The notes beneath the pieces were generated by a model. That model saw nothing but the letters and a program-made list of their open reading frames with translations. It was not told where the DNA came from and ran no database searches. Shown in pieces: positions 866-35,962 of a DNA stretch of 64,000 bases. The stretch comes from Geoglobus acetivorans (GTDB lineage: Archaea; Halobacteriota; Archaeoglobi; Archaeoglobales; Archaeoglobaceae). Position 1 is the first letter of the stretch. Every line of letters starts with the position of its first letter. A program made the translations under genes and the position numbers. The stretch spans positions 1,302,001-1,366,000 of the forward strand of contig NZ_CP087714.1 of NCBI RefSeq assembly GCF_039641995.1, given 5' to 3'.

Positions 866-879
866 GGAAATCTAATTCC
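866..879. promoter_or_regulatory. Distal NrpR-type operator, perfect GGAA-N6-TTCC
   Basis: GGAAATCTAATTCC matches the NrpR operator consensus known from methanogens (GGAA-N6-TTCC). It overlaps the downstream edge of a TATA-like element (AATTATATGG, 858-867), so a bound repressor would cover the start region of any promoter here. It lies about 140 bp upstream of the promoter-proximal site at 1021 in front of the acyl-CoA dehydrogenase operon. The rest of 691-1020 holds no supported gene. Confidence 0.5.
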
Positions 880-1020
880 AAAGATTCGATTGTTTTTCAT
901 ACTATGCTTCTGGAAATGTTACTTTATTCTGTGTTTTTTTCTGGGCATATTCTCTGTTATTATGACTTTTACAGTTTGGACGTGCAACATCAAACATTGC
1001 CTTAGTTAGCATCTACAATC

Positions 1021-1048
1021 GGAAGTTAATTTCCGAAAACTATATATT
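1021..1048 (+). promoter_or_regulatory. Promoter with NrpR-type operator for the acyl-CoA dehydrogenase-sucCD operon
   Basis: GGAAGTTAATTTCC (1021-1034) is a perfect GGAA-N6-TTCC palindrome flanked by C and G. Six bases later comes the TATA box TATATATT (1041-1048), with a BRE-like CGAAAAC between them, so the operator abuts the BRE. The same layout occurs at 6203-6232, 6264-6294 and 7385-7415. Transcription should begin near 1068-1072, giving a very short leader. Confidence 0.75.
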
Positions 1049-1081
1049 GGCATGCAGTGTCCCAACACATGGGTGATAAAC

Positions 1082-2272
1082 GTGTCCAGACCAGCAGACT
1101 TCTACAACATCGATGAACTTCTAACAGACGAGGAAAAGCTTGTAAGAAGCTCAGTTAGGGAATTCCTGGAAAAGGAAGTCAGACCTCTCGTTATAGATGC
1201 CTGGCATGAAGAAAAGCCCCTCAACTTCAGAGAACTCGGGAAGAAGTTCGGAGAACTCGGCATGCTCGGGGCGTTCATCCCCGAGGAATACGGCTGTCCG
1301 GGAATGAACTACACCACATTCGGGTTAATCTGCCAGGAAGTCGAAAGAATCGACAGCGCTCTCAGAAGTTTCGTGGCCGTAACATCCGGCCTCGTCATGT
1401 ACCCAATATGGAGGTACGGCAGCGAGGAGCAGAAGAAAAAGTACCTTCCCAAGCTTGCGAGCGGAGAGATCATAGGCTGCTTCGGCCTCACCGAGCCAAA
1501 CCACGGCAGCGATCCCGCAAGCATGGAGGCGAGATGCAAAAAAGACGGAGACGAGTGGATCCTCAATGGAACAAAAACCTGGATTACAGAGGCTGACATA
1601 GCAGACATTGCAATCTTCTGGGCGAGAGACGTTGACGACGGCAGGGTGAAGGGATTCATAGTGGAGAAGGGAACCAAAGGCTTCCACCAGAGCGCATTGA
1701 CTAAGAAAGGCTCAATGAGAGCAGGAGGCGTGGGTGAATTCTCGCTTGTCAACTGCAGAGTCCCGGATGAACAGAGGCTGCCTGAGGCAAAGGGCCTTGG
1801 CGCCCCTCTAAGCTGCCTCAATCAGGCAAGGTTCGGCATCTCCTGGGGAGCAGTAGGCATAGCCTTGGACTGCTTTGAGACAGTACTCAGCTATGTGAAG
1901 GAGAGGAAGCAGTTTGGAACCCCTCTCGCATCCTTCCAGCTCGTCCAGGAAAAGCTCGCCTACATGCTTATAGAGATCACAAAAGCCCAGCTCGTCGCAT
2001 GGAGACTGGGCAGACTCATGGATGAGGGCAGGGCAACAACAGAACAGATCTCCTTGGCCAAAAAGAACAACGTCAAAATCGCAAGGGATATAGCAAGACT
2101 GGCAAGGGAAATGCTCGGAGCCAACGGCATAAGCCTTGACTACTCCCCGATAAGACACATGGCAAACATCGAGTCAGTCTACACCTACGAAGGCACAGAC
2201 GACATCCACACCCTCATCCTCGGCAGAGCCATAACCGGAATCCAGGCCTTCAGAAGGGAGCTGAAAATATGA
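1082..2272 (+). CDS. Acyl-CoA dehydrogenase, glutaryl-CoA dehydrogenase type
   Basis: FAD enzyme oxidising an acyl-CoA; by family, glutaryl-CoA to crotonyl-CoA plus CO2. Family marks are strong: LRS followed by LVMYPIWRYGSEEQ, the FAD/substrate stretch GCFGLTEPNHGSDP, and YEGTDDIHTLILGRAITG with the catalytic Glu at about residue 370, as in human GCDH. The GTG at 1082 is chosen because GGTGAT at 1072-1077 is a good Shine-Dalgarno and the protein (396 aa) then has normal length; an ATG at 1052 would lie ahead of the predicted transcript. The stop overlaps sucC by ATGA. Codon choice is markedly richer in C-ending codons than in sucC/sucD, suggesting a different history. Substrate is inferred: no ETF genes are adjacent. 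Confidence 0.88.
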   Translation: MSRPADFYNIDELLTDEEKLVRSSVREFLEKEVRPLVIDAWHEEKPLNFRELGKKFGELGMLGAFIPEEYGCPGMNYTTFGLICQEVERIDSALRSFVAVTSGLVMYPIWRYGSEEQKKKYLPKLASGEIIGCFGLTEPNHGSDPASMEARCKKDGDEWILNGTKTWITEADIADIAIFWARDVDDGRVKGFIVEKGTKGFHQSALTKKGSMRAGGVGEFSLVNCRVPDEQRLPEAKGLGAPLSCLNQARFGISWGAVGIALDCFETVLSYVKERKQFGTPLASFQLVQEKLAYMLIEITKAQLVAWRLGRLMDEGRATTEQISLAKKNNVKIARDIARLAREMLGANGISLDYSPIRHMANIESVYTYEGTDDIHTLILGRAITGIQAFRRELKI

Positions 2273-3423
2273 GACTTCATGAGTATCAGGCGAAGAGGAT
2301 CTTTGAAGAGCATGGTATCTCAATACCGAAAGGGAGAGTTGCTGAAACCTCTGAAGAGGCAAGAGAGATAGCTAAGGAGCTTGGTGGAGAGGTTGTTGTT
2401 AAGGCACAAGTTCTTGTGGGTGGCAGGGGCAAGGCAGGAGGAATAAAGAAGGCAGAAAATCCTGATGAAGCTGGAAAGATTGCCGATGGGCTTATTGGGA
2501 GCTATATAAAAGGTCATAAAGTTGAAAAAGTTCTCGTAGAGGAGGCACTGGACATTAAGGCGGAGTACTACGTTGGCTATGTAATTGACAAAAGCAGAAA
2601 GAGGCCAGCATTGATTCTGAGCAGAAGAGGCGGAATGAATGTGGAAGAGATTGCAGAAAAATATCCTGATGATGTGATCAGAATTCATTTTGATCCCCTG
2701 TGGGGTTTGAGAGATTATCAGGTGAGGAAAGTACTGTACGAAGCAAATTTTGATAGCAACGAAATTCCGGAACTTTTGAAAATAGCCAAGAATCTCTGCA
2801 CAATAGCTTTTAAATTTGAAGCAGAGCTTACTGAGATAAATCCTCTTATTCTGACAGATGCCGGATTCGTTGCTGCCGATGCCAGACTGAACATAGATGA
2901 TAATTCTCTTTATCGCAATCCGGAACTTCTGAAACTCAGAGATGCAACAGAGGTCGATGAACTCGAAAGGGAGGCGGTGCTTAAAGGACTGAACTATGTC
3001 AGAATCGGGGGGGATATTGGGATTGTTGCCAACGGCGCCGGACTGGCAATGGCCACGATGGATCTGATACAGCTCATGGGAGGCAGACCGGCTAACTTTC
3101 TGGATACGGGTGGAGGTCTGTCAGATCCCCAGAAAATGAGGATGTGTCTGGAACATGTGGTCAGAGATGAGAATGTCAAGGTCGTTTTTGTAAACATTTT
3201 CGCCGAGATTACGAGATGTGAGAAGGTTGCTGAGGGGATAGTTCTTGCTATGGATACCAGCCGCAGAATCCCTCATGTTGTAAAACTTGCAGGAACAAAT
3301 GAAGAACTTGGAAAGCAATTGCTTCGGGAATTTGCAGAGAGGTCTGGAGCCGAGATTTACTTAGTTGACAGTATTGAAGAAGGGGCTAAAAAAGCTGTGG
3401 AGGTTGCGGGAGGTGGTGTTTGA
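2269..3423 (+). CDS. sucC: Succinyl-CoA synthetase beta subunit (ADP/GDP-forming acid-CoA ligase)
   Basis: ATP-grasp subunit of the acid-CoA ligase that interconverts succinyl-CoA and succinate with nucleotide phosphorylation. The start MRLHEYQAK, the ATP-grasp region (VVVKAQVLVGGRGKAGGIKK) and the C-terminal CoA-ligase part with GGGLSDP and NIFAEITRCEKVAEG are typical; 384 aa is the usual length. The ATG overlaps the stop of the upstream acyl-CoA dehydrogenase (ATGA), so the two are translationally coupled. In this setting the enzyme could activate a dicarboxylate other than succinate, which is inference. Confidence 0.95.
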   Translation: MRLHEYQAKRIFEEHGISIPKGRVAETSEEAREIAKELGGEVVVKAQVLVGGRGKAGGIKKAENPDEAGKIADGLIGSYIKGHKVEKVLVEEALDIKAEYYVGYVIDKSRKRPALILSRRGGMNVEEIAEKYPDDVIRIHFDPLWGLRDYQVRKVLYEANFDSNEIPELLKIAKNLCTIAFKFEAELTEINPLILTDAGFVAADARLNIDDNSLYRNPELLKLRDATEVDELEREAVLKGLNYVRIGGDIGIVANGAGLAMATMDLIQLMGGRPANFLDTGGGLSDPQKMRMCLEHVVRDENVKVVFVNIFAEITRCEKVAEGIVLAMDTSRRIPHVVKLAGTNEELGKQLLREFAERSGAEIYLVDSIEEGAKKAVEVAGGGV

Positions 3424-4293
3424 ATGGCAATACTTGTCGATGAACGCACAAGGGTGATAGTTCAGGGAATTACAGGGTTTCAGGGAAAATTTCAGACCAA
3501 AAGAATGCTTGAATACGGAACAAAGATTGTTGGAGGAGTCTCTCCGGGAAAGGGTGGCCAAGAAGTTTTTGGAATTCCAGTATTCAACACTATGGATGAG
3601 GCTGTTGAAGAAACGGGAGCCAACACTTCGATAATTTACGTACCTGCTAGATTTGCCTATGATGCAGTTCTAGAGGCTATAGATTCCGAACTGGATCTTG
3701 TGGTCTGTGTAACTGAAGGGATCCCCCTCTACGATGAAATGAGGGTCCATTTAAGGCTTGAGAATTCCAGAACCGTGCTCATCGGCCCGAACTGTCCCGG
3801 TGTTATCAGTCCTGGAAAATCAAAGGTGGGTCTCCTCCCAGACAGGTGTTTCGCTCCGGGGAGATTAGGTATAGTTTCAAGAAGTGGAACGCTCACCTAC
3901 CAGATTTCCGAGAATCTCACCAAGGCAGGAATTGGCCAGTCAACGGTCGTCGGAATAGGTGGGGATCCGATGCCAGGACTGACCTTCAGGGATGTTCTTG
4001 AGATGTTTGAGGAGGATGATGGGACGGATACTGTCCTGCTCATAGGTGAAATCGGGGGAAGTGCTGAGGAAGAGGCGGCAGAATACATTGCAACAAAAAT
4101 GAGCAAGCCTGTTGTAGGATACATAGCTGGCGTAACCGCCCCTCCTGGCAAAAAAATGGGTCATGCAGGTGCAATCATCGAAGGTCGAAAAGGAACGGCA
4201 GAGTCTAAAATAGATGCTTTGATGGATGCAGGAGTTACAGTTGTGCAGTCCCTTCAGGATGTGGTCGATGCTATAAGAAATATTATGCAATGA
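3424..4293 (+). CDS. sucD: Succinyl-CoA synthetase alpha subunit
   Basis: Partner of sucC; it carries the CoA-binding domain and the phosphohistidine loop. Visible are the CoA-binding start (VIVQGITGFQGKFQTKRM), GPNCPGVISPG, SRSGTLTYQ and GHAGAIIEG with the phosphorylated His at about residue 247. The start follows the sucC stop with no gap. It is the last gene of the operon that begins at 1082; a TTTTTC stretch at 4324-4330 may end transcription. Confidence 0.95.
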   Translation: MAILVDERTRVIVQGITGFQGKFQTKRMLEYGTKIVGGVSPGKGGQEVFGIPVFNTMDEAVEETGANTSIIYVPARFAYDAVLEAIDSELDLVVCVTEGIPLYDEMRVHLRLENSRTVLIGPNCPGVISPGKSKVGLLPDRCFAPGRLGIVSRSGTLTYQISENLTKAGIGQSTVVGIGGDPMPGLTFRDVLEMFEEDDGTDTVLLIGEIGGSAEEEAAEYIATKMSKPVVGYIAGVTAPPGKKMGHAGAIIEGRKGTAESKIDALMDAGVTVVQSLQDVVDAIRNIMQ

Positions 4294-4413
4294 TGTAGGA
4301 TCGGAAGCTGCACGGTTTCCCTACTATTTTTCTTCTAAAATTGTGTTTGTTCCGGAACGCGTCTTGATGTTTGCGATCGGACAGTGTGTTTTATCATAAA
4401 ATAAAAATAAAAT

Positions 4414-4662
4414 TCATATTCTTAAAGTATGCTCGCCTCGTATGTAGAATATCAGAAATCCCACAAGCACTCCCAGTGTTGCAACCTGAATTGACTTGGG
4501 AACAACCTGTTTCCATGCGAATGTCGCAATAGATGCCCCTGATTCTCCTCCTACTACGAAAGCTACGAGTATCATGAGGAATACCAGCAGTCCTGCGATC
4601 ATAGCAATTCCAAGAAGAGCTCCAAAGATGCTCTTCACCATTTCTTCGGTTTTTTCTTTCAC
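4414..4662 (-). CDS. Small two-helix membrane protein downstream of the TRAP permease
   Basis: 82-aa protein with two predicted transmembrane helices (about residues 14-36 and 56-73). It starts with GTG, preceded by GGGGGTGA, 12 nt after the stop of the permease gene, so the two form one operon. Its place suggests it stands in for the small DctQ-type subunit, but DctQ proteins normally have four helices and no DctQ motif is recognisable. Function unknown; the partnership is inferred from position only. Confidence 0.7.
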   Translation of the reverse strand: MKEKTEEMVKSIFGALLGIAMIAGLLVFLMILVAFVVGGESGASIATFAWKQVVPKSIQVATLGVLVGFLIFYIRGEHTLRI

Positions 4663-4674
4663 AGTCTCACCCCC

Positions 4675-6051
4675 TCATGCGAAAGCAATTGGCAGAATGC
4701 CTAAGAGCAATAGCAGCAGCACAATGACGTGGGCTCCCACCCACACGAGAGTTATCTTTGTGGTCTCTTTAAACCCTGATCCGGCAATTCCCATCGCCAC
4801 ATACATGCACAGTGCTAAAGGTGGAGTCATACCTTCCAGAGCTCCTGTAAGTGCTGGCAGAACTCCGGCGGCTACAACCGGACTCATTCCCGTTGCGACC
4901 AGCAGTGTGACCAGCGTTGGACCAAGTATTGCAATTTGTGAACTGCCTGGAAGAACCATTCCCAGTACAACACCTATGAAGACTATCAGAAGCACGAGAG
5001 CTACGATGCTGAGGTTCAGTGGCTCTATTGCAGCATTCACAGCCTGTCCCAGCTCCAGCTCTTTGAACACGTAGGCAATGGAATACGCAAAATAAACTGT
5101 GAGTGATACGGGCACAACACTGTGGTACGAGTTCTTGAACATTCTGGCGATGTTGTTGAAGAGGCCACCTTTAGATAGCTCCGAGCGGGAAATCAGGATT
5201 GCGTAGGCCATTGTGACAGGGGGTGTGAAGAACAGCACAGTCTTGGAAAAAGCTTTTGCTCCGTCGGCTCCTATCCTTGCTATTATCAGATCTTTCATTG
5301 TTGCATCTATCAGGAACGGCAGGAATATCATCAGGGGGAGTATCAGCACATACCAGCTGCCCTTCAGCGACTCTTTAAGCGATGGAAGTTCTTCCTTAGG
5401 TATTGGTTTCACATCATACACGTAGGTCATTGCAATCAGGGTTACAAGTCTCTGGAGAACGAACCAGATTCCTATTCCCCATACCACCAGCCAGAACTCT
5501 GAAAGCGTGAACATCTCGGGATACATTGCATCGAGCACTCCGAAAGCGAGCAGGATGGTTCCTGAGGGTGGAATCATAGGCCCCATTGCGCTTGACGCCA
5601 TTTCAACGGATGCTGCGAGGTGTCTCGGAAAGCCTGTTCGTATCATGGATGGGATGGTGAAGACACCCGTCGAGGCAACGTTACCCGGACCCGACCCTGA
5701 CAAAGATGCCATGAATGTACTTCCGAAAAGGCTGACGTATCCGGCACCACCCCTGAATCTGCCAACAGCTGCCAGTATTATTCCTATTATTTTATCAATG
5801 ACTCTGGTCTCTCCGAAAACATGTGCTAGCAGCAGAAATCCTACAATCGCATAGAACAGTGTGCTAGTCGAGGGCTTTATCAGGTACTTCAGAAACAGAT
5901 CGAACCTTCCGCTGAACACTATCAGAAGAACGTACGAGAGTGCCATCACTTCGTATATGGGCCTCCTGAATACAACGAACAGTATGGCGATTATTCCCAG
6001 CAGCAGCACTATATAGAGTATTGGCAGAGGGACTCCAAAAAGGGCGTTCAA
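4675..6051 (-). CDS. TRAP-type transporter large permease (DctM-like)
   Basis: Sodium-coupled carboxylate uptake permease of the cytoplasmic membrane, about 11-12 helices. The stretches GSGPGNVASTGVFTIPSM and SAMGPMIPPSGTILLAFG resemble the conserved substrate-site loops of TRAP large subunits of the TAXI/fused class. The start is taken as TTG 6051 (458 aa), not the GTG at 6060, because that GTG lies inside the Shine-Dalgarno AGGAGGTG. The TTG also overlaps the stop of a 38-codon upstream ORF (TTGA). No periplasmic binding protein gene is present nearby. Divergent from the NrpR-like regulator and preceded by an NrpR-type operator, so it is probably in the same regulon as sucCD. Confidence 0.85.
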   Translation of the reverse strand: MNALFGVPLPILYIVLLLGIIAILFVVFRRPIYEVMALSYVLLIVFSGRFDLFLKYLIKPSTSTLFYAIVGFLLLAHVFGETRVIDKIIGIILAAVGRFRGGAGYVSLFGSTFMASLSGSGPGNVASTGVFTIPSMIRTGFPRHLAASVEMASSAMGPMIPPSGTILLAFGVLDAMYPEMFTLSEFWLVVWGIGIWFVLQRLVTLIAMTYVYDVKPIPKEELPSLKESLKGSWYVLILPLMIFLPFLIDATMKDLIIARIGADGAKAFSKTVLFFTPPVTMAYAILISRSELSKGGLFNNIARMFKNSYHSVVPVSLTVYFAYSIAYVFKELELGQAVNAAIEPLNLSIVALVLLIVFIGVVLGMVLPGSSQIAILGPTLVTLLVATGMSPVVAAGVLPALTGALEGMTPPLALCMYVAMGIAGSGFKETTKITLVWVGAHVIVLLLLLLGILPIAFA

Positions 6052-6164
6052 TTTTCGCACCTCCTGGAAAGCGAGACTCTTGCAATCTCTGAAACCACTG
6101 CTCTCTTTTCCATTTCCATCGAGTTTCTCATTTCTGTGTGATACCTTCTTCGAGTTTCACACAT
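6048..6164 (-). CDS. 38-aa ORF translationally coupled to the TRAP permease
   Basis: Short reading frame beginning MCETRRRYHTEM, rich in Arg, Glu and Met. It is preceded by a strong Shine-Dalgarno (GGTGAGGTGG) with 4-nt spacing, starts just downstream of the predicted transcript start, and its TGA overlaps the TTG start of the permease in the form TTGA. No family is recognised. It may be a small structural protein, a leader peptide coupling translation of the permease, or chance; the SD and overlap argue that it is translated. Confidence 0.55.
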   Translation of the reverse strand: MCETRRRYHTEMRNSMEMEKRAVVSEIARVSLSRRCEN

Positions 6165-6202
6165 CCTACCACCTCACCGACGTTAAGTTTAACATCATTG
6201 AT

Positions 6203-6232
6203 AATATTAAAACTTTTTGGTAATTGATTTCC
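6203..6232 (-). promoter_or_regulatory. Promoter with NrpR-type operator for the TRAP operon
   Basis: On the minus strand GGAAATCAATTACC (6232-6219) differs from GGAA-N6-TTCC at one base. Six bases further on lies TTTTAATATT (6212-6203), a TATA box. Spacing and orientation copy the promoters at 1021 and 7385. Transcription should start near 6180, just ahead of the small ORF. Confidence 0.65.
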
Positions 6233-6263
6233 ATTAATTAAATGACCTATAAATGTGGTTTAT

Positions 6264-6294
6264 GGAATTGTGAATCCGTAATAAAATTTTAATA
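6264..6294 (+). promoter_or_regulatory. Promoter with NrpR-type operator for the regulator gene (autoregulation)
   Basis: GGAATTGTGAATCC (6264-6277) is one base from GGAA-N6-TTCC. It is followed by an AT-rich TATA element (AAAATTTTAATA, 6283-6294). The predicted transcript start falls at or next to the ATG at 6311, so the mRNA would be leaderless. Together with the divergent site at 6219-6232 this suggests the regulator controls itself and the TRAP operon. Confidence 0.6.
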
Positions 6295-6310
6295 GTAAAT
6301 TACCAAAAGC

Positions 6311-7318
6311 ATGTTTATGACCCGAAAGTACGGAGATCTTCCGAAAACTGCAGTGGAGATACTCAAGATAGTTTCAATGTCATCTAAGCTGACGAATTCA
6401 ATCGAAATAGCCAAAATCCTCCATAAGGAGAAGGTTTACGTTGACTCCAGAACGGTGAGATATCATCTCAGGCAACTGGAGGATCTTGGTTTTATCACTA
6501 AAATTGGAAGGAAAGGCTGCATCATCACACCTGAGGGTCTTGAGCAGCTGAAAAGGATAATGGTTTACGAGAGGCTTGGTATGCCATCCATTCAGGTGGA
6601 GAAGATGATCGCCAGCAGTACATTTAATCCTGAAACCGGTAAAGGAACTGTTCTTGCCAATGTTGCCGTGATACCAAAAGAGGATTTTGAAAGGGCGGCA
6701 GAGATCATAAATTTCGTATCCTCTCTGAATGTTTTTCCTTCACCGCTGATAGCCGTCGGTGACGAGGGGGAGAGTCTCGGGGATTTTCTCGTTCCGGAAA
6801 ACCATGTAGGTCTTGGGTGCATTTCCACCACCGTTTATGACAGCGTACTTCGTAAAAAAGGTATATTTGTCGAATCCATAGCGGCAGGAGTTTATGAGAT
6901 ACGAGACAGCAAACCAGTGGGATTTGTGGAGCTAATAACACACAACGGAGCGACTTTAAGTCCCGGTGAATTGTTTATCAAAGCTGGATGGACTTCTGTG
7001 AGGAAGATTGCGGAGACGGGCAATGGACATGTTACTGCAGCAATCAAAAGATTTCCCTTCTTCTTTTCAGATGTTGTTGAAAACACTGTTGAACAGTTTA
7101 GAAATATGGGTATAGATGGTGTCATAGAACTTTTCGCAATAACGCCAGAGATAGAGAGAATAGATGTCACCGATGCAAGCAAGGGGAGATTAATTGTTTT
7201 CGGGGGAGGTAATTATTTTGCTCCACTGGTTGAAGAAGGTATGGATGTTAAATTGACCATAAATGCTACACTGGTTGAAGTAAGCGAAATGAAACCTCCA
7301 GATAAAATTTTGAGTTGA
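6311..7318 (+). CDS. NrpR-like transcriptional regulator (winged helix plus DUF128/NRD)
   Basis: 335-aa DNA-binding protein. Residues about 10-75 form a winged helix-turn-helix (SRTVRYHLRQLEDLGFITKI); the remainder matches the NrpR regulatory domain (DUF128), with VGLGCISTTVYDSVLRKKGI and THNGATLSPGELFIKAG. NrpR represses nitrogen-assimilation genes in methanogens and is released by 2-oxoglutarate. Here there are no nitrogen genes; instead the four nearby promoters carry the NrpR operator form, so this paralogue probably controls the carboxylate locus and may sense a related dicarboxylate (inference). One regulatory domain only, as in single-NRD forms. Start at ATG 6311; ATG 6317 is an alternative. 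Confidence 0.88.
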   Translation: MFMTRKYGDLPKTAVEILKIVSMSSKLTNSIEIAKILHKEKVYVDSRTVRYHLRQLEDLGFITKIGRKGCIITPEGLEQLKRIMVYERLGMPSIQVEKMIASSTFNPETGKGTVLANVAVIPKEDFERAAEIINFVSSLNVFPSPLIAVGDEGESLGDFLVPENHVGLGCISTTVYDSVLRKKGIFVESIAAGVYEIRDSKPVGFVELITHNGATLSPGELFIKAGWTSVRKIAETGNGHVTAAIKRFPFFFSDVVENTVEQFRNMGIDGVIELFAITPEIERIDVTDASKGRLIVFGGGNYFAPLVEEGMDVKLTINATLVEVSEMKPPDKILS

Positions 7319-7384
7319 TTCTGTTTTAAGAATGGATATTTTATTCCATTTATCTAAAAATTTAATCTTTTTATTTTTCTACGG

Positions 7385-7415
7385 TTTTGGAAATTAATTT
7401 CCAAAAATTTAAATA
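7385..7415 (+). promoter_or_regulatory. Promoter with perfect 22-bp palindromic NrpR-type operator
   Basis: Bases 7385-7406 form a perfect 22-bp palindrome, four T, GGAAATTAATTTCC, four A, containing an exact GGAA-N6-TTCC (7389-7402). The TATA box TTTAAATA begins five bases later at 7408. It drives the AtuA-like/DUF4387 pair. This is the strongest operator of the set and can serve as the reference for searching the genome. Confidence 0.8.
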
Positions 7416-7459: not shown

Positions 7460-8809
7460 ATGTTGAGGGAAATTAAAATACTGTCGCCTACCGGACATCT
7501 GGGTTTCACGCCCTTGGAAAAGGATAGTTTTTTGACTGGTGTTAGCAAAAAACCGGACTACATTGTTGCAGATTCGGGAAGCGCAGACATCGGCCCATAT
7601 TACTTGGGGGCTGATATGCCCTGCAGCCCTGAAATGTGGCAAAGGCACGATTTGGAACTGATTCTTAAAGCATCGAGAGATCTGGATGTTCCTATGATCA
7701 TAGGGAGCGCTTCCGATACTGGAACGAACAAGGGTGTCGATCAGTTTGTGCGTATAATCAAAGAGATAGCGAGAGAGAACGATCTGCACTTCAACCTTGC
7801 CTACATATACTCTCAGCAGGATAAAAACAGAATCAGGCGGATTCTTAATGAGGTTAGGGTTGAAGGGCTGGATGGTTTTGAAGACCTGAATTCTCAGATA
7901 CTGGACAGGACTGACAACATAGTTGCAGTGATGGGCCCTGAACCGATAATTCATGCACTGGATAATGGAGCAGATGTGATAATTGCGGGACGCAGTTCGG
8001 ATTCGTCGATCTTTGCAGCCCCCCTCATCCGGGAAGGTATTTCCAAGGCAACGGCATTTTATGCCGGAAAAGTGCTGGAGTGTGCGTCGTTCTGTGCGGA
8101 GCCCTTCATGGGTAAGGAAAGCGTTATGGGTTATGTGAAAGAAGGAGAAGTGATTGTTGAACCCATGCACCCCAAGCAGCGGTGTACAGTAGCTTCTGTG
8201 GCAAGTCACAGCATGTATGAGAGGGTTGATCCCTATTATGAGAGAGTGCCAGGTGGCGTGCTGGATATGAGCGAATGTGTGTACGAGCAGATAGATCACA
8301 GAAGAACGAGAGTTACGGGCTTTAAATTCATAGAAAGCGAACTCAAAATCAAGCTTGAAGGTGCAGGTAAGGTTGGTGAAAGATGTATATGTATTGTCGG
8401 ATTCAGGGATCCATATTTGATCAAACATATAGACAAGGTCATCGAATGGTCGAAAAAGAAGGTCGAGGAAAGGTACTCTGACAGGACATACCAGCTGTAT
8501 TACCACCTGTACGGCATTAATGGAGTGATGAAGGATCTTGAGCCAGTTAGGAATCCCTCATCTCACGAAATATGTCTGATCGTCGAATGTGTTGCAGAAA
8601 CTGCTGAAGATGCGAAGGAGATAGCTACCTTGGCAGCCAGAAACACATTCTATGCGAGACTGCCGGAGGTAAAGGGAACAGCAGGAACAGCGGCCATGAT
8701 GTCTGATGAGGCCATACTGACAAAACCAGCATACGAATGGACAGTAAATCATCTGATCCCGGTTTCAGACCCCTTGGAGCTGTTTGACGTCCACTTTGAG
8801 GATGTTTAG
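7460..8809 (+). CDS. AtuA-family protein (acyclic terpene utilisation / DUF1446-like)
   Basis: 449-aa protein of the AtuA-like family, recognised from the N-terminal ADSGSADIGPYYLG, the central GADVIIAGRSSDSSIFAAPL and by the DUF4387 gene that follows, its usual companion. The biochemical activity of the family is not established; AtuA itself lies in a citronellol/geranyl-CoA breakdown operon of Pseudomonas. GGAGGGGT precedes the ATG by a few bases; TTG 7463 is a possible alternative. Its promoter carries the best NrpR-type operator of the window, tying it to the neighbouring CoA-dehydrogenase and transporter units. Confidence 0.8.
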   Translation: MLREIKILSPTGHLGFTPLEKDSFLTGVSKKPDYIVADSGSADIGPYYLGADMPCSPEMWQRHDLELILKASRDLDVPMIIGSASDTGTNKGVDQFVRIIKEIARENDLHFNLAYIYSQQDKNRIRRILNEVRVEGLDGFEDLNSQILDRTDNIVAVMGPEPIIHALDNGADVIIAGRSSDSSIFAAPLIREGISKATAFYAGKVLECASFCAEPFMGKESVMGYVKEGEVIVEPMHPKQRCTVASVASHSMYERVDPYYERVPGGVLDMSECVYEQIDHRRTRVTGFKFIESELKIKLEGAGKVGERCICIVGFRDPYLIKHIDKVIEWSKKKVEERYSDRTYQLYYHLYGINGVMKDLEPVRNPSSHEICLIVECVAETAEDAKEIATLAARNTFYARLPEVKGTAGTAAMMSDEAILTKPAYEWTVNHLIPVSDPLELFDVHFEDV

Positions 8810-8819
8810 AGGTGATGGA

Positions 8820-9155
8820 ATGGCTGTTAAAAAGCTGGTTGAGCTGGCATCAACAATAAGAAGCAAGAATGCGGGAGTAAACAGCATAACATTCGACATA
8901 ATCTTTAGCAATCCAGACAACTATGAGAAGGTTAAGAAAAGTGGAATGCTGAACAAAAAGACCATTGCACGGTTATTTGGAATACCGGAGGAGCGCATCG
9001 TCAGTTTCGTGGAGTTCGATCCGGCAAACGCCATCAAGTTTACAATTCGAAGAGTCAGACCGAGTGGAAGTCCGGGCGAATCGGACATTTTTGGCAGCCA
9101 GCAATATGCTCCGCTCCTGGATTTGGAAATCGAAGTGGATGATACTACTGAATAA
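8820..9155 (+). CDS. DUF4387 family protein
   Basis: 111-aa protein with the DUF4387 signature: RSKNAGVNSITFDIIF near the start, DPANAIKFTI, and GSPGESDIFGSQQYAPLLDLE near the end (shown in parts). The ATG at 8820 is preceded by GAGGTGAT with ideal spacing, which excludes the longer frame from 8784. It sits 10 bp after the AtuA-like gene and is almost certainly co-transcribed. DUF4387 proteins are often encoded beside, or fused to, AtuA-like proteins; their role is unknown. Confidence 0.8.
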   Translation: MAVKKLVELASTIRSKNAGVNSITFDIIFSNPDNYEKVKKSGMLNKKTIARLFGIPEERIVSFVEFDPANAIKFTIRRVRPSGSPGESDIFGSQQYAPLLDLEIEVDDTTE

Positions 9156-33248: not shown

Positions 33249-33538
33249 TCTATTTTGAAGGCAGTTATGAGGCCCGAAACGGCTCCTATCACCACTGCGA
33301 AAAATATACTCAGTGCGAACAGCTGACCCGTCTGTGTGGCTTTTTCGAAAATGCCTTCAGAGGATAGGTAAGCAACGAAAGCCAGCCATACGAGCAATCC
33401 GCCAAATGCTCCATACAGTACCTTGGACTTTATTGAATTTCCGTAGAGTGACAGTCCTGCTCCGGCGATAACTATCCCGATCCAGTGGAATGCCGAGATC
33501 ATAACACCGATAATAAATATTGGAAATCCGAGGTTCAT
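33239..33538 (-). CDS. Small membrane protein downstream of the penicillin acylase gene
   Basis: 99-aa protein, three hydrophobic helices (about residues 5-25, 35-55, 65-90). ATG 33538 overlaps the upstream stop as ATGA and has GGAGGTGGGAGA ahead, so it is coupled to the acylase gene. Function unknown. Confidence 0.7.
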   Translation of the reverse strand: MNLGFPIFIIGVMISAFHWIGIVIAGAGLSLYGNSIKSKVLYGAFGGLLVWLAFVAYLSSEGIFEKATQTGQLFALSIFFAVVIGAVSGLITAFKIDQR

Positions 33539-35865
33539 TCTCCCACCTCCATCTCTATGTATCTGCACTCCTTCCACATTTCAAGCAGGTCGTGGTAGTG
33601 CTTGGAGAAGTAGTTTCCAGAATTTCCACCCGGAATGATCCCATACATTATGCCCTTAGCATCGTCGAACGTTGTGATCATTCTCCAGCTGCTTCCTGCC
33701 TGGTCTGGCCTGTAATCGTATCTGAAATTGTAAACGGTGTATTTTGAGCCGTTCATTTCCATAATTGGATAGTTCATGAAAGCAACCTTCGGATAGAATG
33801 GGTGAACGGCTATGAATCTGTTTATGTCGCCGTATCTTGTCCATCCCTTCTCCTCGATTTTCTCGGCAACTTTGTCCATGGCTCTTGCAATAATGTCGTA
33901 TCTGTTCTCGGTCTTTTCAGTGTTTATGTCGTCAAACCATTTGCTGTTTTCAGGCAGGTTTTGCAGAACCCACAGTTTGGGATAGTAGCTTTCGTCAAGC
34001 CCTGCCGAGCTGAATTCGTCGTGGAAGGTCTCGTTCATGAATTCATCTATGAAAAGCGAGAATATCAGTGCCGCTTTGGAGTCATACGTCATCCTGTAAT
34101 CCCAGTTGAGCAGTTCTTCTGCATATTCTTTTGCTCTATCTGAGAACGGAATTCTGTCAAAGTTTTTCCTGATGTCGTTCACGAAGAACTCTGCGGGCTT
34201 GGAATAGACGTCTTTCTGCATGTCGATGAAGTCTTGGACTGTGAGCTTCCTTCCGTCTTTCGTCTTCTCTTTAAGCATCTCATAAATTCTCATCCCTCTG
34301 TATGGGTCTGCAAAATACCCGCTATCTCCTATGTAATGTTTGAAGTTCAGGACGGGTCTCTGGTTTGCTGTGGCAACGTAATCCGGGTCTATGAGGTGCG
34401 GGATCTCTTCAAATGGTACAAACCCCTCCCAGCTTGAGATTCCGTATGGTGTAAATCCCACCCATTCGCCTTCACCTCTGCTTCCGTTGAAAATAACATT
34501 TCCTGGAACTTCTTTTCCGTCTGTGTATCTGATCGGGTACTTTCCTGCCGGATAGTATGCAGTATGGCCTTCCCTGTCGATTATCACAAAATTCTGGGCT
34601 GGAACGTAAAACCATTTCAGCGCATCTATTGCTTCCTGAACGTTTCTGGCTTTATTCAGCTTGAAGATTGCTCTGAGTTCTGTGGTTGCGCTCAGTCCTG
34701 TCCATGCCACCGCAACTTTGGTACCGTATTTTTCGATCAGTGGTCCGTGGACGGTTTTTTCAACCACGATCTTTTTCTCCTTGATGCCTTCGTCTGTTAG
34801 CATCTTCAGGGTTTTTACTTCCTTACTGACTTCTCTCCATTCTCCCTTGTAGAGGTATTTATCCCCATCAAACTTGTAGGTGTAGAAGTCAATAACGTCA
34901 GCACCCACATTCGTAACGCCCCATGATATGTACTTGTTCTGTCCAATGACTATTACCGGGATTCCGGGGAAAGTGACACCCTGGACTTCGAAGTCGCCAG
35001 CTTTCAGGTGCATCATGTACCACACAGGCGGAACACGCAGCGACAGGTGGGGGTCGTTGGAGAGCATGGGCTTCCCGTTCTTCGTGTATTTGCCGGAGAC
35101 AAGCCAGTTGTTTGAACCCGCCGAATCGTCTTTTTCGAAGTTGCTGAGCCAGTCAACGAGACTTTTGTTTATGTTTGGTATATCGCTGTATATTATCTGG
35201 TAGGTGTGGTTGAGGTAGTCTGGATAAAGTTCTTCAGCATCAGGGAGGTTTTTGAGGATCACTGCTCTTTTCAGGTCCCAGAAATCTCCTGTTAAACCCC
35301 ATGCTATCAGCTTGTTTACGAGAAATGTATCTACTGGGGTCCATGGCTTTGGAGTATATCCGAGGAGCTTGAATTCTGGCTGGAGTTCCCCATCTTCAAT
35401 GTATTTGTTCACACCGTCACAGTAGGCCTGCAGAAGTGGAGCGTATTCGCTATTTTTGAAGTATTCCCAGGTTGCCCTGGCCGCACCCTCGAAGTCCATT
35501 TTGATGTAAAATTCGTCAGTTTCGTTTAAAGACTCTCCAAAAACCTCCGAAAGCTGGCCTTTCATCAGTCTACGCTGTAAATCCATCTGAAAGAGCCTAT
35601 CCTTGGCCTGAGCATATCCTGTAGCATAAAAAAGGCTTTCAAGGTTATCGGCTGTAATGTGAGGCACACCATACTCATCGTATTCGATTACTGCTTTGCC
35701 ATACGGGGTTGAGAGTTCTATTTTATCGACCTCGTGGAACTTCCAGAACTGTCCAAATGGCGCAAAAAGATTCATGTAATCGTACATTGGTGAGATCAGT
35801 ATCAGCAAAATCGCTACAGATAGAAGGGAGAAAAATTCTCCTCTTCTGAGGGGTCGCAGTCTCAT
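33535..35865 (-). CDS. Penicillin-acylase-family Ntn hydrolase
   Basis: 776-aa amidohydrolase matured by self-cleavage. One N-terminal hydrophobic anchor (about residues 12-32) places it at the outer membrane face. The new N-terminal Ser nucleophile is in DDSAGSNNWLVSG; other family marks are DEYGVPHITADNLESLF, LSNDPHLSLRVPPVWY and GWTRYGDINRF near the end. In archaea and bacteria the relatives cleave acyl-amides, including acyl-homoserine lactones and beta-lactams; the natural substrate here is unknown. ATG 35865 lies about 28 bp after AATATATTTATT. Confidence 0.88.
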   Translation of the reverse strand: MRLRPLRRGEFFSLLSVAILLILISPMYDYMNLFAPFGQFWKFHEVDKIELSTPYGKAVIEYDEYGVPHITADNLESLFYATGYAQAKDRLFQMDLQRRLMKGQLSEVFGESLNETDEFYIKMDFEGAARATWEYFKNSEYAPLLQAYCDGVNKYIEDGELQPEFKLLGYTPKPWTPVDTFLVNKLIAWGLTGDFWDLKRAVILKNLPDAEELYPDYLNHTYQIIYSDIPNINKSLVDWLSNFEKDDSAGSNNWLVSGKYTKNGKPMLSNDPHLSLRVPPVWYMMHLKAGDFEVQGVTFPGIPVIVIGQNKYISWGVTNVGADVIDFYTYKFDGDKYLYKGEWREVSKEVKTLKMLTDEGIKEKKIVVEKTVHGPLIEKYGTKVAVAWTGLSATTELRAIFKLNKARNVQEAIDALKWFYVPAQNFVIIDREGHTAYYPAGKYPIRYTDGKEVPGNVIFNGSRGEGEWVGFTPYGISSWEGFVPFEEIPHLIDPDYVATANQRPVLNFKHYIGDSGYFADPYRGMRIYEMLKEKTKDGRKLTVQDFIDMQKDVYSKPAEFFVNDIRKNFDRIPFSDRAKEYAEELLNWDYRMTYDSKAALIFSLFIDEFMNETFHDEFSSAGLDESYYPKLWVLQNLPENSKWFDDINTEKTENRYDIIARAMDKVAEKIEEKGWTRYGDINRFIAVHPFYPKVAFMNYPIMEMNGSKYTVYNFRYDYRPDQAGSSWRMITTFDDAKGIMYGIIPGGNSGNYFSKHYHDLLEMWKECRYIEMEVGE

Positions 35866-35962
35866 AGTATGTAATTTAAATGCCAAATAAATATATTTTT
35901 CGGATTAATAATGAAAATTAAAATGGCAACTGTTAAAAAACCACGTTAACCTCCTCTGAAAC

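Follow-up and report, generated by a model that had tools for sequence, protein, structure and literature searches.

NrpR is known from textbooks as the nitrogen regulator of archaea, and the locus described here raises the question of what a member of its family controls when it is encoded among genes for acyl-CoA and dicarboxylate metabolism. We analyzed a 64,000-nucleotide stretch of the Geoglobus acetivorans genome (contig NZ_CP087714.1, positions 1,302,001 to 1,366,000), referred to here as the window, in which a gene for an NrpR-like regulator (NrpRL) sits in a cassette with genes for a glutaryl-CoA dehydrogenase (GCDH), a SucCD-type acyl-CoA ligase, a DctM-type permease, and an AtuA-DUF4387 pair. 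Taking the sequence comparisons together, we consider it probable (roughly 70%) that NrpRL represents an Archaeoglobi-specific clade of the NrpR family that regulates catabolism of a C5 dicarboxylate, probably glutarate, through palindromes abutting the transcription factor B recognition element (BRE). Sequence analysis established where the sites are, that they are conserved and exclusively placed, and that regulator, site, and GCDH occur together.

Operators and promoters in the window

A preliminary description of the locus listed five GGAA-N6-TTCC sites, perfect at 866, 1021, and 7389 and with one mismatch at 6219 and 6264, and all five were found at these positions. It placed the four promoter-proximal sites about 5 to 9 bp upstream of a TATA box; we read operator-to-TATA gaps of 6 nt (1021), 6 nt (6219, minus strand), 9 nt (6264), and 5 nt (7389), and the operator's final C abuts the BRE. 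A sixth, conserved site at 7334 had been missed. The operators and promoter elements are as follows (the composite pattern is defined in the next section):

866 to 879, no strand assigned: auxiliary operator GGAAATCTAATTCC, a conservation island 155 bp upstream of the main GCDH operator
1021 to 1034, plus strand: main operator GGAAGTTAATTTCC of the GCDH-sucCD promoter, one of the top two palindromes genome-wide, conserved, composite match
1041 to 1048, plus strand: TATA box TATATATT with a BRE-like GAAAA before it, seen in the sequence and conserved
6205 to 6212, minus strand: TATA box TTTTAATA of the DctM promoter, seen in the sequence and conserved
6219 to 6232, minus strand: operator GGAAATCAATTACC (minus-strand reading) of the DctM promoter, conserved in two relatives, composite match
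6264 to 6277, plus strand: operator GGAATTGTGAATCC before the regulator's own TATA box (6287 to 6294), conserved in two relatives
7334 to 7347, no strand assigned: auxiliary site GGATATTTTATTCC, 55 bp upstream of 7389, conserved
7389 to 7402, plus strand: main operator GGAAATTAATTTCC of the AtuA-DUF4387 promoter, a perfect 14-bp palindrome, sole exact copy in the genome, conserved
7408 to 7415, plus strand: TATA box TTTAAATA of the AtuA-DUF4387 promoter, seen in the sequence

Four more perfect GGAA-N6-TTCC sites, unlisted in the preliminary description, lie at 4949, 9681, 34505, and 48504. The last two are identical (GGAACTTCTTTTCC), and because 34505 falls within an open reading frame (ORF) of 783 amino acids (33535 to 35886), they are probably paralogous coding sequence and not operators.

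Exclusive placement of the extended palindrome

GGAA-N6-TTCC is a common motif, and the simplest explanation of the four promoter sites would be coincidence. At the level of the bare consensus, on which the preliminary description had relied, the counts agree with that explanation: sites with at most one mismatch number 43 in the window compared to 39.6 expected, and perfect sites number 65 in the whole genome (a single contig of 1,903,522 bp) compared to 57 for a reversed control pattern, mostly within ORFs where checked. We therefore dropped the bare consensus as evidence.

The genome-wide scan gave a different result for the extended palindrome. Over 1.9 Mb, GGAAATTAATTTCC is found with no mismatch at 7389 only and with one mismatch at 1021 only. 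The related form GGAARYYRRYTTCC has two copies in this genome (both in the cassette), two in G031, and four in G011; seven of these eight copies sit in the same cassette, and the reversed control has none in the three genomes. A composite pattern of operator, BRE, and TATA box (GGMANNNNNNTWCCRMAWNNTWWWWW) has exactly four matches in the genome, at 1021, 6219 (minus strand), 7389, and C1:645139, compared to none for its control. The match at C1:645139 belongs to an operon 657 kb away that contains the genome's only other NrpR-like gene. All four matches are at catabolic or regulator-linked promoters. In agreement with the earlier statement that the sites do not serve nitrogen genes, neither of the genome's two amt genes nor glnA has a site within 1.2 kb (nif was not searched). 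Over 57 Archaeoglobales genomes, the composite pattern has 32 matches compared to 3 for the control, with 22 of the 32 at the regulon promoters discussed here by our own classification.

A position weight matrix trained on the relatives alone gave its four highest ranks in the window to 1021, 7389, 6219, and 866, in that order. Because one of 30 Markov windows scored up to 22.3 with this matrix, the score of a site does not by itself settle the matter. Palindromes with two mismatches at other genomic positions (L006, L020, L021, and L023) fall inside ORFs. Overall, the evidence comes from the palindrome in its extended form, from the geometry of the promoters, and from conservation, and not from the bare consensus. 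Given the exclusive extended palindromes, the conservation islands described below, and the share of composite matches at regulon promoters, chance similarity is extremely improbable.

Conservation in relatives

The whole cassette is present in the same order in two metagenome-assembled genomes, Archaeoglobus sp. JdFR-37 and UBA234. Intergenic alignments among the three cassettes are poorly conserved save for islands at the six operators (866, 1021, 6219, 6264, 7334, and 7389), the TATA boxes, and the translation starts, such that both relatives keep all six operators beside the same regulator. Changes within operators preserve the palindrome class, as at the GCDH promoter (GGAAGTTAATTTCC, GGAAGTTAACTTCC, and GGAAACCAACTTCC). 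Spacing is also maintained: 866 and 1021 are 155 bp apart in the window genome and 156 and 153 bp apart in the relatives, 6219 and 6264 are separated by 45, 45, and 46 bp, and 7334 and 7389 by 55 bp in all three. The kept spacing of paired sites suggests two-site cooperation, for which the two nif operators of Methanococcus maripaludis offer a precedent (Lie et al. 2005, as cited in PMC2723118).

Predicted target genes of the cassette

The first gene of the cassette, previously labeled an acyl-CoA dehydrogenase, is by its sequence a GCDH, and this identity gives the regulon a meaning. A phmmer search against the PDB matched 2eba (E 2.9e-133) and the GCDH structure 1siq (E 2.5e-117); of the ten top-ranking PDB structures, nine are glutaryl-CoA dehydrogenases and the other is an unnamed acyl-CoA dehydrogenase. 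The genes of the cassette are as follows:

1082 to 2272, plus strand: GCDH, with a GTG start inferred from relatives and the ribosome-binding site
2269 to 3423, plus strand: sucC-like ADP-forming acyl-CoA ligase beta subunit (NCBIfam NF001913, above cut-off)
3424 to 4293, plus strand: sucD-like acyl-CoA ligase alpha subunit (NCBIfam TIGR01019, above cut-off)
4414 to 4662, minus strand: small protein of 82 amino acids after DctM, hydrophobic by inspection, 83 to 87% identical in the two syntenic cassettes
4675 to 6060, minus strand: DctM-type dicarboxylate transporter permease (PF06808, E 5.6e-50), 95 to 96% identical in the relatives
6311 to 7318, plus strand: NrpRL, with an HTH_12 winged helix and one NRD domain, assigned by Pfam, profile, and tree
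7460 to 8809, plus strand: AtuA-family protein (PF07287, E 1e-37)
8820 to 9155, plus strand: DUF4387 protein (PF14330, E 3e-38)

The regulon of four promoters proposed earlier is upheld in that conserved operators stand at all four; its labels "acyl-CoA dehydrogenase" and "TRAP operon" (tripartite ATP-independent periplasmic transporter) required correction. In the latter case, DctM is present together with the 82-amino-acid protein, which is conserved in all three cassettes and has no Pfam match, while DctP and DctQ genes were not found beside it in the cassette. DctM and the small protein possibly form a binding-protein-independent dicarboxylate transporter.

The AtuA-DUF4387 pair (7460 to 9155) recurs beside NrpR-like genes, as in G010 (L079, 4039 to 7103). 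There, an NrpRL relative and the pair diverge from a D-glutamate-cyclase-like gene and a TRAP operon, DctPQM, with two palindromes in the gap, a neighborhood hinting at a glutamate- or hydroxyglutarate-like substrate. A literature search on DUF4387 and AtuA found no relevant paper.

A second GCDH operon

The operon behind the promoter at C1:645139, which carries GGAAAACAAATTCC-GAAAAATTAATA, encodes GCDH, a Liv-type ATP-binding cassette (ABC) transporter, a CaiB-type CoA-transferase III, and NrpRL (at C1:652701), in that order. The best NCBIfam model for this CoA-transferase and for its counterparts in G026 and G032 is succinate-glutarate CoA-transferase. Both operons thus combine a transporter, GCDH, and an NrpR-like gene, with a putative ligase (SucCD) route to glutaryl-CoA in one and a putative transferase (CaiB) route in the other.

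The two GCDH copies (1072 to 2264 in the window and C1:645191 to 646387, L086) differ at 1 of 1,193 bases, from the ribosome-binding site to near the stop codon. Their promoters are unrelated, and the GCDHs of the relatives' cassettes share only about 80% protein identity. This pattern points to a gene conversion or replacement that is recent and has sharp boundaries.

Association of regulator, site, and GCDH across Archaeoglobales

Among the 57 Archaeoglobales genomes, GCDH occurs in 23 and NrpR-like proteins in 28, and in at least 10 genomes GCDH and NrpRL are adjoining or co-operonic. Recurrent neighbors of the NrpR-like genes are GCDH, SucCD, a CoA-transferase of the glutarate type, and transporters of the dicarboxylate or ABC kind. 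At all 16 GCDH promoters read in 15 NrpRL-bearing genomes, a GG-N10-CC palindrome precedes RMAA and then a TATA box (14 by strict pattern; G032 and G046 by eye, with one extra base before TATA). The palindrome is absent at the GCDH promoters of five genomes lacking NrpRL (G047, G048, G050, G051, and G053); it is also absent in G008, which is 54% complete and was set aside from the comparison. Half-site variants are clade-specific (GGAA/TTCC, GGCAA/TTTCC, GGAAA/TTACC, and GGT/GCC). Genus g13 holds both states, and site and NrpRL co-vary within it. The naive Fisher value for the association of site and NrpRL, which ignores kinship, is 5e-5. A TGA noted inside the GCDH of G054 proved to be the gene's own stop codon.

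The strongest evidence that the regulon is defined by the site, and not just by gene neighborhood, comes from targets that are not linked to the regulator. In G001, GCDH, sucCD, and NrpRL lie in three separate parts of the chromosome, and composite matches occur solely at the GCDH promoter and at the divergent promoter of sucCD and a major facilitator superfamily gene; the same holds in G004. The predicted regulon is larger than the window, including the second GCDH operon of this genome and GCDH and sucCD in other genera, some in trans.

These data also bear on whether some other transcription factor uses the palindromes, with the NrpR-like gene a passenger in the cassettes. Such an explanation would account for the motif's likeness to the NrpR operator being limited to the outer half-sites, which occur at chance frequency. 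However, the site at GCDH promoters tracks NrpRL both within one genus and where the two are unlinked, and GGTAA-N4-TTTCC-like sites are also present at the NrpRL promoters of the G010 relative and of distant clade members, which is consistent with autoregulation. We consider a passenger role very unlikely.

Other members of the clade have different neighbors. In G022 and G006 (L083 and L089), a clade-branch NrpRL directly follows a TAXI-type TRAP transporter near fumarate-reductase-like genes, a locus that is a further candidate dicarboxylate regulon. In G031 and G030 (L081 and L087), NrpRL lies near genes for a flavin adenine dinucleotide (FAD) oxidoreductase resembling GlcD and D-2-hydroxyglutarate dehydrogenase and for an Fe-S subunit.

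Family placement of the regulator

The preliminary description identified a DUF128/NrpR-domain winged-helix protein at 6311 to 7318, and Pfam agrees: PF01995 (NRD1_2) matches with E 6e-59 and 199.6 bits (cut-off 25), and PF08461 (HTH_12) matches residues 15 to 80 with E 7e-12. A profile of 18 family sequences finds the solved NRD structure 3nek (MJ0159) with E 8.6e-37; a single-sequence PDB search returned only ribosomal S19e winged-helix noise. The genome encodes one other PF01995 protein; each has one NRD, and the PF01995 search of the genome found no NRD-only partner.

By sequence, the regulator belongs to an Archaeoglobi-specific clade of NrpR-family transcription factors and is not a recent NrpR paralogue. 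In a tree of 57 sequences, it and the GCDH-linked proteins form a 31-row group containing only Archaeoglobi (support 100/100), set apart from methanogen-type NrpRs sampled from the same phylum (M. maripaludis NrpR is not in the tree) and from a second, NrpRI-like Archaeoglobi group. Its own subclade (G031, G011, G010, and G055) is sister to the remainder. A VCS motif is invariant and SIDP typical in the sampled methanogen NrpRs; the clade has VIS or CIS and TLSPG instead, changes that are compatible with a changed ligand.

Likely identity of the inducer

Several points weigh against glutarate as the acid and against the reading as a whole. The SucCD models are for succinate-CoA ligase, the CaiB proteins score below the NCBIfam cut-off (313 to 326 compared to 750 bits), and no role in the breakdown of glutarate is known for AtuA-DUF4387. 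Close NrpRLs occur in G055 (58%) and G010 (52%), where GCDH was not found at the threshold used, and some clade NrpRL genes adjoin TRAP-TAXI transporters or FAD oxidoreductases, making other dicarboxylates possible. The genomes are related, so their counts are not independent events. Finally, an AlphaFold2 model of the regulator from three sequences has a mean predicted local distance difference test score (pLDDT) of 42, too low for a reading of the ligand pocket.

The same regulon and sites might instead answer to another dicarboxylate or to 2-oxoglutarate, as a general carbon/nitrogen-status switch. The varied neighbors of clade members (TRAP-TAXI, the D-glutamate-cyclase-like gene with TRAP DctPQM, and FAD oxidoreductases), the response of methanogen NrpR to 2-oxoglutarate, and the unexplained AtuA-DUF4387 pair are all in keeping with this. 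On the other hand, GCDH, which acts on glutaryl-CoA, is the shared target that recurs from genus to genus, and the VCS and SIDP motifs are replaced in the clade. We judge a different inducer unlikely, though far less so than a passenger role. Glutarate is 2-oxoglutarate minus the keto group, which makes it an attractive, if unproven, ligand.

Proposed mechanism

With glutarate as the most likely C5 dicarboxylate, NrpRL would bind the 14-bp GGAARYYRRYTTCC-type palindrome at four promoters, those of GCDH-sucCD, DctM, NrpRL itself, and AtuA-DUF4387; the last C of the palindrome abuts the BRE, and TATA follows 5 to 9 bp downstream. The auxiliary palindromes at 866 and 7334 probably assist by cooperative binding or perhaps looping. 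The acid would be imported by regulon products, converted to its CoA thioester by SucCD in the window or by the CaiB-type CoA-transferase in the second operon, and, as glutaryl-CoA, oxidized by GCDH. The NRD domain, with which methanogen NrpR detects 2-oxoglutarate, presumably senses glutarate or a close C5 analogue, such that the pathway genes would be on when the acid is present. In this proposal, NrpRL binding, the identity of the ligand, and the sign of regulation are inferences.

The sign could be activation, by recruitment of TFB and TBP, or repression, by blocking TFB. The odds are about even, with activation at least as likely because the operators lie upstream of BRE/TATA, as do activating TrmBL1 sites. 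Repression relieved by 2-oxoglutarate, the default suggested by methanogen NrpR, should accordingly not be taken for granted: in the TrmBL1 precedent, sites directly upstream of the BRE activate.

Implications

On the evidence of comparative genomics, a whole NrpR-family clade most likely runs carbon catabolism in Archaeoglobales, with an operator, targets, and a candidate ligand that can be named, and this would be among the few predicted ligand-responsive catabolic regulons of hyperthermophilic sulfate- and iron-reducing archaea. The broader proposition, that a large Archaeoglobi clade has come to sense dicarboxylates from outside the cell, glutarate above all, and activates catabolic operons from directly upstream of the BRE, is more tentative, and we lean slightly against it. 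If it is true, the only NrpR homologue of Archaeoglobus fulgidus is not a nitrogen regulator at all. These results caution against labeling PF01995 proteins nitrogen regulators, and the system lends itself to asking whether a shift in position, from downstream of BRE/TATA to upstream, is how archaeal regulators change sign. We found no paper linking NrpR to glutarate, which, given partial coverage of the literature, is weak evidence of novelty.

Comparison with known systems

NrpR of M. maripaludis acts as a repressor, and 2-oxoglutarate releases it. Both this protein and Methanosarcina NrpRI (PF01995) share with the window regulator the winged helix and NRD domain, as well as operators near core promoters with GGAA and TTCC half-sites spaced 6 nt apart (PMC2723118). 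Unlike those systems, the window regulon is predicted to be catabolic rather than nitrogen-related, the clade is confined to Archaeoglobi, each protein has a single NRD with no NRD-only partner in this genome, the operators have a palindromic inner spacer and sit upstream of the BRE, and the ligand is probably other than 2-oxoglutarate.

For TrmBL1 of Pyrococcus furiosus, sites downstream of TATA bring about repression, whereas those upstream of BRE/TATA bring about activation (PMC4706686). Like NrpRL as proposed here, it is an archaeal catabolic regulator of the palindrome type with sites in the latter position; it differs in belonging to the TrmB family and responding to sugars, and we claim no homology. 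In Pseudomonas putida, glutarate prompts GcdR to activate gcdH-gcoT, which encodes GCDH and a glutarate-CoA transferase, and CsiR responds to glutarate and L-2-hydroxyglutarate (PMC6667623). GcdR is thus likewise tied to GCDH and a glutarate-CoA transferase, but GcdR and CsiR are LysR- and GntR-family proteins acting at bacterial promoters, and they are unrelated to NrpRL and resemble it as functional analogues only.

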